64,000 nucleotides of DNA from Bolinopsis microptera (lineage: Eukaryota; Ctenophora; Tentaculata; Lobata; Bolinopsidae): positions 4,583,246 through 4,647,245 of the forward strand of contig NC_087081.1 of the NCBI RefSeq assembly GCF_026151205.1. Reading direction: 5' to 3'. The notes below the pieces were generated by a model, which saw nothing but the letters and a program-made list of their open reading frames with translations, did not search any database and had not been told where the DNA came from. A program made the translations under genes and the position numbers. Position 1 is the first letter of the stretch. Every line of letters begins with the position of its first letter. Below, piece by piece: positions 42,328 to 45,300 of this stretch.

Positions 42328-45300
42328 CTGGAGAGGGTACAACAAGTATTCATAACATTACATGGAAACATGGTGTTTTGACTTTGTAAGAGGGGGTGGG
42401 GACTGGGAAGGGAGGGACATACAACTCACTTGACACAATTGTGATTTTCCTCCAGGTTGTGTTTGATAGAGATACTCTCCCAAATGAGAGGGGTGGGGAC
42501 TGGGAAGGGAGGGACATACAACTCACTTGACACAATTGTGATTTTCCTCCAGGTTGTGTTTGATAGAGATACTCTCCCAAATGAGAGGGGGTGGGGACTG
42601 GGGAGGGAGGGACATACAACTCACTTGACACAATTGTGATTTTCCTCCAGGTTGTGTTTGATAGAGATACTCTCCCAAATGAGAGGGGGTGGGGACTGGG
42701 GAGGGAGGGACATACAACTCACTTGACACAATTGTGATTTTCCTCCAGGTTGTGTTTGATAGAGATACTCTCCCAAATGAGAGGGGGTGGGGACTGGGGA
42801 GGGAGGGACATACAACTCACTTGACACAATTGTGATTTTCCTCCAGGTTGTGTTTGATAGAGATACTCTCCCAAATGAGAGGGGGTGGGGACTGGGGAGG
42901 GAGGGACATACAACTCACTTGACACAATTGTGATTTTCCTCCAGGTTGTGTTTGATAGAGATACTCTCCCAAATGAGCCTATTCTCCTCCAGCTGATCTA
43001 CCACGACCTGGGCTGGGGGCAGCAGTTTTATCAATAAGGTATAGAGAGGGGCTAAGATGAAGTCGTTAAATTTGATCTGCAGGGAGGGGATGCAGGCTTT
43101 CTTTCGGTCGTTTTGTTGAAGAGGCGTTCTGCCTAGTTCCTTTTCCATGTCACCTAGGAAAATGGATTTTCAGCTACCGGTTTTAGTGCAGAGCTTCTAA
43201 AGTGCATTGTTTAAACTCTAAATAAAAGCACATTTTATAATCGGGATATAAATTGTGGTTCGTAATGAAATTTTGCTGTTACTGTTCAATATTCCAACCT
43301 TCAGAAAAGAACTCCGAGTATATATGATCCCTGACAATAACAGAGCTCTCCTCGAACATCTTAACATTGATGGACAGATCACAACTCGTAATCACCAGAG
43401 ATAAGAGAGGAAGTGGTGATTAGAGTTGTTGAAATCGTACCCTGACGTTGCCATTTCTTTTTGTTGTGAAATAATCCTGGGGTGGAATGGTTTAAAGTAC
43501 TTATGTTTATTAATAATGGCACGTTCATAATTATATCAACAAGGTAATATTTTAGCTGAAGTTAATGACTAATGACTTAATGATTAATTAGCCGCTAATA
43601 TTATCTTACCTTAGGTGTTGAGCAAGATCGGTAGCCAATATTATCTTTTGGATATTATCAAGACACGCTCTGTAGTCATCTGTTTCAAGGCTGAAAATAA
43701 AAGAGAATTCAGAATAAGCAACATAATTGGTTACCATGTAACCATTAATTCACGAACAAATAAAAACTGTTCTTTATCGGTGACAGTACAACTTTGGCGA
43801 ATTTTTGTAGTCAGCGCTGTTTTAATAATTTCTGCGTACTCAACATGCAAAATAGCGATTAAACAGCACTCCTAACACAACCTACCCCTCAATAATGTTG
43901 CACCCAGATGTGTTGAGTATACAGAAAGTTTGTGCGAAGTGGTGCCTCTCCATCACACTCCCTTCTGAGCTGTACAAACACGCCAGGACTGACCTGAACG
44001 GAAGTGTCATTTATATTTAGGGGTAATTCGGATGTAAAGGCTGAAATACTTTCTGAATTGACAATGCATGGTTGAAATGGATGCATTTGAAAAGATTATA
44101 TTTGACACAAGAGGAACTGTTCAACAAGCAGGATTTTCCGAAAAGCATTTTCTTAAAGTCTTATTCCAATCATGATAGTCCACAAAAATTTGCGCAATTA
44201 AGCAACGAAAACGTTTAAAAGCAGCCCCATAATGCTGTAAAAAGCTTTTTTTTAATTTCCAAAAAAAATCGAAACCAGCGCCCCAAATCAAGCGAACCTG
44301 CTAGCAACTTGAAAAGCGTTGGTGGTACCCCTGTGATCGAGATCATGACAGAAACAAGCGATGAGCATCGCCAAAACTTCGATATCCGTCATGTACTTGG
44401 AGATATCCACTGCTTTGCATAGGGAGTAGAAGAAGTGACCGACACAGAAGGCGTGCATCCAGTTGTGATAGGGAGGGTCCCGGTATCTGAAAGATATATT
44501 TAAGCGGTGGGAAAATGTTCATGGCTCATATCATAGTCATGCAGCGTTTGATTTTAAACCGCGGAAAAACATATTTTAAAAACTAACAAACAGGCTAGGA
44601 AAGAATTAATCCGATGATGAAAGGAAATGACTAGAAGAGATGATTAGTTAAGAAGGGAAGAGAGCAAACTAAGAGATGATTAGTTAAGAAGGGAAGAGAG
44701 CAAACTAAGAGATGATTAGTTAAGAAGGGAAGAGAGCAAACTAAGAAATGATTAGTTAAGAAGGGAAGAGAGCAAACTAAGAGATGATTAGTTAAGAAGG
44801 GAAGAGAGCAAACTAAGAGATGATTAGTTAAGAAGGGAAGAGAGCAAACTAAGAGATGATTAGTTAAGAAGGGAAGAGAGCAAACTAAGAGATGATTAGT
44901 TAAGAAGGGAAGAGAGCAAACTAAGAGATGATTAGTTAAGAAGGGAAGAGAGCAAACTAAGAGATGATTAGTTAAGAAGGGAAGAGAGCAAACTAACAAA
45001 TTAGATAGTAACCATGGTAACTAACCCGCGTTTGACCATGAGAAGGAACCTAGTTAGAGTCTGATGATTGAACTGCCATCTGTTGACCAGTCCTAAATCC
45101 TCAAACATGTGGTACGCCAGGGATATCGACCTGCTTTCTTCTTCCACTGAAATGGTTTTGTTATTTTTACGTAAATCTTGTTGTTGATGAAATTGTGATT
45201 GTTGGAAATAAAGGAAACTGGAAATAGGTATGGAATGAAGTTTATACTTGTATAGCATTCATTGGTCCTAAAATGGAAACCAAACTACTTACCAATATAA

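Follow-up and report, generated by a model that had tools for sequence, protein, structure and literature searches.

A tandem array across the end of an exon in a PDE2-like gene resembles the mirages of amphioxus

Introduction

Minisatellite-like tandem duplications that lie over exon–intron boundaries and carry duplicated AG/GT signals have been described in amphioxus as "mirages". The accessible sections of two reports place them in Adh3 and the globin genes BflGb6 and BflGb9 (PMC3087553), and also in troponin C, with similar repeats of 60 and 108 bp over splice sites in PGBD5 (PMC3902484). Unit lengths in these sections are 10–72 bp for Adh3, 150–160 bp for the globins and 60 and 108 bp for PGBD5; inner units are homogenised, edge units are left out, and regular splicing does not seem to be disturbed (PMC3087553, PMC3902484). 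As far as the same sections go, mirages are described in a few amphioxus genes, proposed as a route to new exons and introns (PMC3087553) and discussed as raw material for them (PMC3087553, PMC3902484). A second described system comes from segmentally duplicated human genes, in which internal tandem repeats lie at exon–intron boundaries (De Grassi and Ciccarelli 2009; PMC2812944). The available part of that study counts 27 RNA-supported intron modifications, for 66% of which there is also an alternative transcript retaining the repeat, so boundary repeats can change splicing in human genes. Finally, a Drosophila study, of which we cite the accessible portion (PMC2891723), treats the gain of introns through tandemly duplicated AG/GT proto-splice sites; the idea is attributed to Rogers 1989, as cited in PMC3087553.

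Here we analyse a tandem array in a PDE2-like gene of the ctenophore Bolinopsis microptera, within a stretch of 64,000 nucleotides that we call the window. New here are the gene and perhaps the host; the kind of repeat has already been described. Our literature search, of partial coverage, recognised no mirage outside cephalochordates. An earlier sequence-only reading had named this locus the best candidate in the window for an undescribed mechanism, but boundary repeats with duplicated AG/GT signals are already reported as amphioxus mirages in the accessible text of PMC3087553 and PMC3902484.

The PDE2-like gene and its 3' end

The gene runs on the minus strand from before 48950 to about 40538, and its exons align with PDE2A chains from the PDB over GAF and catalytic domains, the best E-value for joined frames being 9.5e-101. 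We take these chains to be human. Sixteen introns were modelled by hand from homology and phase, the shortest of them 114 nt (n = 16), and this one gene also supplied the hand-modelled sites, 16 donors and 16 acceptors, behind the scoring matrices. Three exons lie at the 3' end:

42919..43153, minus strand: exon 21, last catalytic-domain exon, as far as a GTGAGT donor (end 42965 with a GTATCT donor); phmmer match to PDE2A, E 8.6e-12 to 1.8e-10; acceptor TTTTCCTAG/GTGACATGG
42136..42327, minus strand: predicted exon 22, open in one frame; ends CCG/GTTAGT
40538..41010, minus strand: predicted exon 23, an ORF with a coding-like C-terminal tail of 156 codons whose phase agrees with exon 22

Predicted exon 23 has a codon score of 58.04 bits over its 156 codons, and a search of it for Pfam domains returned no match. 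Exon 22 reads through its 63 codons without a stop in the frame that joins exon 23, whereas the other frames hold 4 and 8. Its codon score of 6.45 bits is, per codon, no better than that of the neighbouring frame with 8 stops (6.12 over 55), and its one Pfam match, to Occludin_ELL, is weak (E 0.022, below the cut-off). The 3' end of the gene is uncertain because the exon 22 acceptor is poor (score −1.52, equalled or beaten by 33% of 3718 AGs) and is preceded by no branch-like pentamer. Exon 21 may alternatively be a terminal exon ending at a TGA; against this, the minus strand has no AATAAA or ATTAAA from 43000 to 40500, and exon 23 looks coding.

A six-unit array at the end of exon 21

On the minus strand, 42391–42977 consists of six tandem units of 97–98 bp that are 99% alike; the corresponding Tandem Repeats Finder (TRF) row spans 42389–42977 with period 98, 6.0 copies, 99% matches and a score of 1157. 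From 42977 down to 42391 the units measure 98, 98, 98, 98, 97 and 98 bp:

42880..42977, minus strand: repeat unit 1, 98 bp, from TRF; overlaps the exon end by 59 nt (GTGAGT donor) or 13 nt (GTATCT donor)
42782..42879, minus strand: repeat unit 2, 98 bp, identical to unit 1
42684..42781, minus strand: repeat unit 3, 98 bp, identical to unit 1
42586..42683, minus strand: repeat unit 4, 98 bp, identical to unit 1
42489..42585, minus strand: repeat unit 5, 97 bp; C-to-T change in the C-rich tract and one C fewer
42391..42488, minus strand: repeat unit 6, 98 bp; C-to-T change in the C-rich tract
42959..42964, minus strand: GTATCT, weak candidate donor of unit 1 (score −0.36) that would end the exon at 42965
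42913..42918, minus strand: GTGAGT, strong candidate donor of unit 1 (score 6.44) that would end the exon at 42919; an in-frame TGA lies across it
42892..42905, minus strand: acceptor-like tract of unit 1, CCCTCCCTCCCCAG; copied in all units, as CCCTCCCTTCCCAG in units 5–6; acceptor score 3.13/3.69

As a repeat, the array exceeds chance. All six units carry CTCATTTGGGAGA, GTATCT, GTGAGT and a C-rich CAG tract. The tract reads CCCTCCCTCCCCAG in units 1–4, which are identical, and CCCTCCCTTCCCAG (also given as CCCTTCCCAG) in units 5 and 6, which have the C-to-T change in common. TRF and the unit alignment thus bear out the sequence-only reading in its six 97–98 bp units in the intron that follows exon 21. 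Its interval, 42385–43153, does contain the array, but takes in exon 21 as well, whose first base is 43153. It was right that two GT sites recur in every unit; the single tract that it gave to all of them holds for units 1–4 alone. The 13 bases that it saw repeated as the end of the exon are present in 6/6 units as CTCATTTGGGAGA; they form that end under a GTATCT donor.

A search of the 264.65-Mb assembly, also run on a 53-nt core allowing up to 3 mismatches, found no second place for the unit: all 6 matches lie at this locus. Membership in a dispersed element was accordingly rejected on the single place found. A structured RNA of a known family was likewise rejected, with no Rfam match at gathering score in 40000–49500. 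The C-rich tract is a G4/C4 motif, and this array is the only one of the 32 in the window to carry one, so G-quadruplex-driven expansion cannot explain the window's arrays generally.

Where exon 21 ends

GTATCT, at −0.36, scores below all 16 modelled donors (leave-one-out 3.02 to 10.43), and 44% of the 4242 GTs on the strand score as well; GTGAGT is matched by 2.6%. Every modelled donor (16/16) has a G at −1 or +5. AGA/GTATCT has neither, and CAA/GTGAGT has the one at +5. The 46 nt from GTATCT to GTGAGT are stop-free in the PDE2 frame and score +3.88 bits over 15 codons (other frames −2.24 and −2.22); among 20,000 intron segments, 0.16% are both stop-free and as good in codon score. The phmmer alignment to PDE2A extends through these 46 nt (WESISIKHN / WTKVSHKFT). 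We also compared the C-termini of eight paralog matches. In one (L014) the exon continues past the W at the corresponding place (WEEVITLP..., stop), in another (L031) the residues after the W are unlike, and the other six give no clear answer, a comparison that lends weak support to continuation of the exon beyond GTATCT.

Since GTATCT scores below all modelled donors and the sequence behind it looks coding, the exon probably ends at 42919, at GTGAGT. In that case each unit would combine 59 nt copied from the exon with 39 nt copied from the intron. This makes the junction from 42965 to 42327, which the sequence-only reading took as canonical, doubtful. On the other side, the frame of exons 22–23 requires a phase-1 donor, which GTATCT supplies and GTGAGT does not; given this and the coding-like exon 23, the weak GTATCT donor may be used after all. 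Both donors may also be in use, with one long tail and one short tail.

Predicted tails and mini-exons

We joined the candidate donors and acceptors computationally and translated the results. From the unit-1 GTGAGT, exon 22 is reached out of frame, as the sequence-only reading had stated, and the protein ends ...NCVKPPTDCQ*, with a stop after six residues; from the unit-1 GTATCT the join gives the long tail. With GTGAGT or GTATCT of units 2–6 the reading frame runs into the TGA that spans the first GTGAGT, and all of these joins end ...NCVK*; exon 21, joined from the later GTGAGT donors to exon 22, becomes 333 to 724 nt long.

One 71-nt mini-exon added behind GTGAGT opens the frame into exon 22, so that this earlier claim holds in the joined translation; with two, yet another frame is entered, which ends ...VKSRSNT*. 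The claim that every unit could serve as a mini-exon of 25 or 71 nt needs trimming. Five mini-exons are available from the six units; four would measure 25/71 nt, and one, at 24/70 nt, would not restore the frame. Within one unit the CAG tract lies 27 nt from GTGAGT and 73 nt from GTATCT. Introns confined to one unit would be shorter than any modelled one (114 nt or more), so only a later unit, with introns of 124–125 nt, could supply a 71-nt mini-exon. As acceptors, the array's CAG tracts score 3.13 (units 1–4) and 3.69 (units 5–6), in the top 8–10% of 3718 AGs, inside the range of the modelled acceptors (−2.09 to 14.07, n = 16) and above exon 22's. Branch-like YTNAY pentamers precede 14/16 modelled acceptors by 15–50 nt; none occurs at that distance before the mini-exon acceptor, which also has two AGs at 22 and 26 nt upstream. 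Mini-exon use is feasible on paper and unsupported.

Arrays and exon borders in the window and genome

Counting as arrays all repeats with a period of at least 7 bp, at least 2.9 copies and at least 80% likeness, the window contains 32, which cover 10.7% of it. For six arbitrarily taken stretches of 10 kb the corresponding values are 1.1, 0.4, 0.6, 32.4, 1.1 and 7.5%. Random placement of the 32 window arrays covers 3.6 of the 34 modelled borders on average, against 1 observed, so a border-covering array is not beyond chance. Four arrays lie within the modelled span of the PDE2-like gene, two of them intronic arrays as follows:

44635..44996, minus strand: intronic array of the PDE2-like gene, 36 bp x 10.1; units TTAACTAATCATCTCTTAG, branch-plus-acceptor-like
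45976..46755, minus strand: intronic array of the PDE2-like gene, 41 bp x 19.1; stops 5 nt short of the acceptor that precedes the exon at 45971

When the four were placed at random within the gene, 7.4 borders were covered on average and the probability of one or none was 0.008, in a model with the exon c acceptor 4 nt too far downstream. Arrays avoid exon borders within this gene, as purifying selection would produce. The border-crossing array, which sits behind the conserved catalytic part, is somewhat unusual there.

The window also holds larger repeats. An inverted repeat at 58656–60804 (arms of 544 nt, 95% complementary, 1061 nt apart) is transposon-like and has 11-bp (TACTGTACGTG) arrays at its outer ends; nested inverted repeats at 49263–52366 have arms of 294 nt (94%) 2.5 kb apart and 10-bp GCGCTATCTA-type units; and a long direct duplication at about 2407–7999 has an offset of 2982–2989 bp, with two compared 300-nt stretches 100% identical.

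We surveyed 30 phosphodiesterase loci (96,021 bases, partly overlapping, the window's own gene included), in which 4 of 48 TRF rows overlap a domain match (L022, L021, L017 with 8-bp and L031 with 18-bp units). In L021 the domain match overshoots into the intron and the array is intronic. L022, a second phosphodiesterase gene of the same genome (C5:574962-578156), has a boundary array at 1125–1538 on the minus strand, 178 bp x 2.3 and 97% alike. It begins 32 nt inside the end of the exon ...ASEFFNQGDIE/GTACAT and repeats exon end, GT donor and intron, the 178-bp unit being filled with a short CCAGGTAA-type minisatellite. Twelve kinase stretches, hand-picked from 136 matches as short and internal-exon-like, contain no array across an exon end; the one TRF row that overlaps a match (L053) does so where the match overshoots into the intron. 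Another of the twelve, L058, has a 61-bp x 3.0 array at 210–394 on the minus strand that lies in the intron and begins 6 nt past the end of a kinase exon.

Origin of the array and alternative explanations

The array is likely a young minisatellite that happens to straddle an exon–intron boundary, that is, a mirage. It would have started from one duplication at a 2-bp CT match (CCCCCT/CT.. and AGG/CT..), after which slippage or unequal exchange would have enlarged and homogenised it, and the intron would have grown from about 102 nt to 591 nt, both counted from GTGAGT. Splicing would mostly use a unit-1 donor and remove the other copies with the intron, and that donor would more likely be GTGAGT, giving the short tail ...NCVKPPTDCQ, than GTATCT, giving the long tail of exons 22–23. 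Stray use of later donors would be nearly harmless to the protein because the in-frame TGA spans the first GTGAGT, so that the product (...NCVK*) would nearly equal the short form; an array of this kind would for that reason be tolerated rather than selected. The human boundary-repeat cases, as the available part of PMC2812944 presents them, would by analogy count against this reading.

The copies may instead take part in splicing. Six identical GTGAGT sites could compete for exon 22, extending exon 21 by 98–489 nt in some transcripts that end in ...NCVK*, carry a long 3' part and are perhaps degraded, which would lower PDE2 output. Six copies of a donor in the top 2.6% are indeed present, and every later donor yields this ending in exons of 333 to 724 nt; yet the protein differs from the unit-1 GTGAGT form by six residues only, leaving little room for regulation at the protein level, and in the accessible text of PMC3087553 and PMC3902484 mirages seem to leave splicing intact. 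We consider such competition improbable. The mechanism of the sequence-only reading, in which units are spliced as 71-nt (or 25-nt) exons and unit number tunes the C-terminus through exons 22–23, draws on mini-exon acceptors that lie within the range of the 16 modelled ones and above that of exon 22, on the strong GTGAGT donor, which alone would cut off the coding-like exon 23, and on the open frame that one 71-nt exon restores. The amphioxus authors, too, suggest that mirage units may become real exons, in the accessible part of PMC3087553. It has to contend with a mini-exon acceptor that has two AGs close upstream and no branch-like pentamer, same-unit introns of 27 nt that force the use of alternate units, a mini-exon reading frame that scores non-coding (−2.24 bits, 15 codons scored) and a frame that shifts again with a second mini-exon. 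It would also have been impossible for a single-unit ancestor, and published mirages seem to splice regularly, on the accessible text (PMC3087553, PMC3902484). Such a copy-number dial on the C-terminus may be possible, and we rate it very unlikely; the array as a splicing control is unsupported, and the mechanism is not needed to explain the locus. Very unlikely, too, is a switch of variable length by which PDE2 would have either a short tail (GTGAGT) or a long tail made through exactly one 71-nt repeat exon, and in which gain or loss of units would shift the isoform ratio between individuals or cells; if true, the long form would gain about 220 residues from exons 22–23.

The gene copy itself could be decaying or mis-assembled, and the array without bearing on a protein. 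The catalytic exon at 43476–43299 changes frame by one nucleotide, from frame 1 to frame 0, with the break at about 43411–43401 and a stop between (TGA, 43394–43392). The PDE2A alignment continues on both sides of the break, and of 15 joins checked only the downstream join of this exon is out of phase. The 14 other joins are in phase, however, the other modelled exons are open, and one consensus error would suffice as an explanation. The break is either an assembly error or a real lesion, and we give a defunct copy very little credence, as little as the mini-exon mechanism. With the straddling minisatellite as the preferred reading, this six-unit case and the L022 case in an array-rich genome suggest that minisatellites catch exon edges where arrays are frequent, and the PDE2-like array offers a countable system for asking whether duplicated splice sites are ever used.

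Comparison with described systems

Proto-splice-site intron gain resembles this locus in that splice-site-bearing exon sequence is duplicated. Here, unlike in that model, the duplication lies inside an existing intron, and AGGT, the dual splice site of the model, does not occur in 42391–42977. With the human internal tandem repeats the array has in common a minisatellite expansion at an exon edge, with novel introns or alternative splicing as possible results. The human repeats are defined by differences in unit number between recent paralogs together with RNA, whereas ours is one locus known from DNA, and the assembly search found its unit at one place only, with no near-identical paralogs between which unit number varies.

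The amphioxus mirages differ in the genes concerned, and the PDE2-like array has two donors plus an acceptor-like tract in each unit. Splicing is apparently regular in the mirages; the PDE2-like array is known here from the genomic letters of a single assembly. The two are alike in their short units of exon edge plus intron, which here begin 59 or 13 nt inside exon 21 and extend into the intron, and in the copied AG/GT signals, kept in 6/6 units. The 97–98 bp unit falls between the described lengths and near the 108-bp case. In both, near-identical inner units are accompanied by deviating edge units, here the identical units 1–4 and the differing units 5–6, a thin likeness given six units and few differences.
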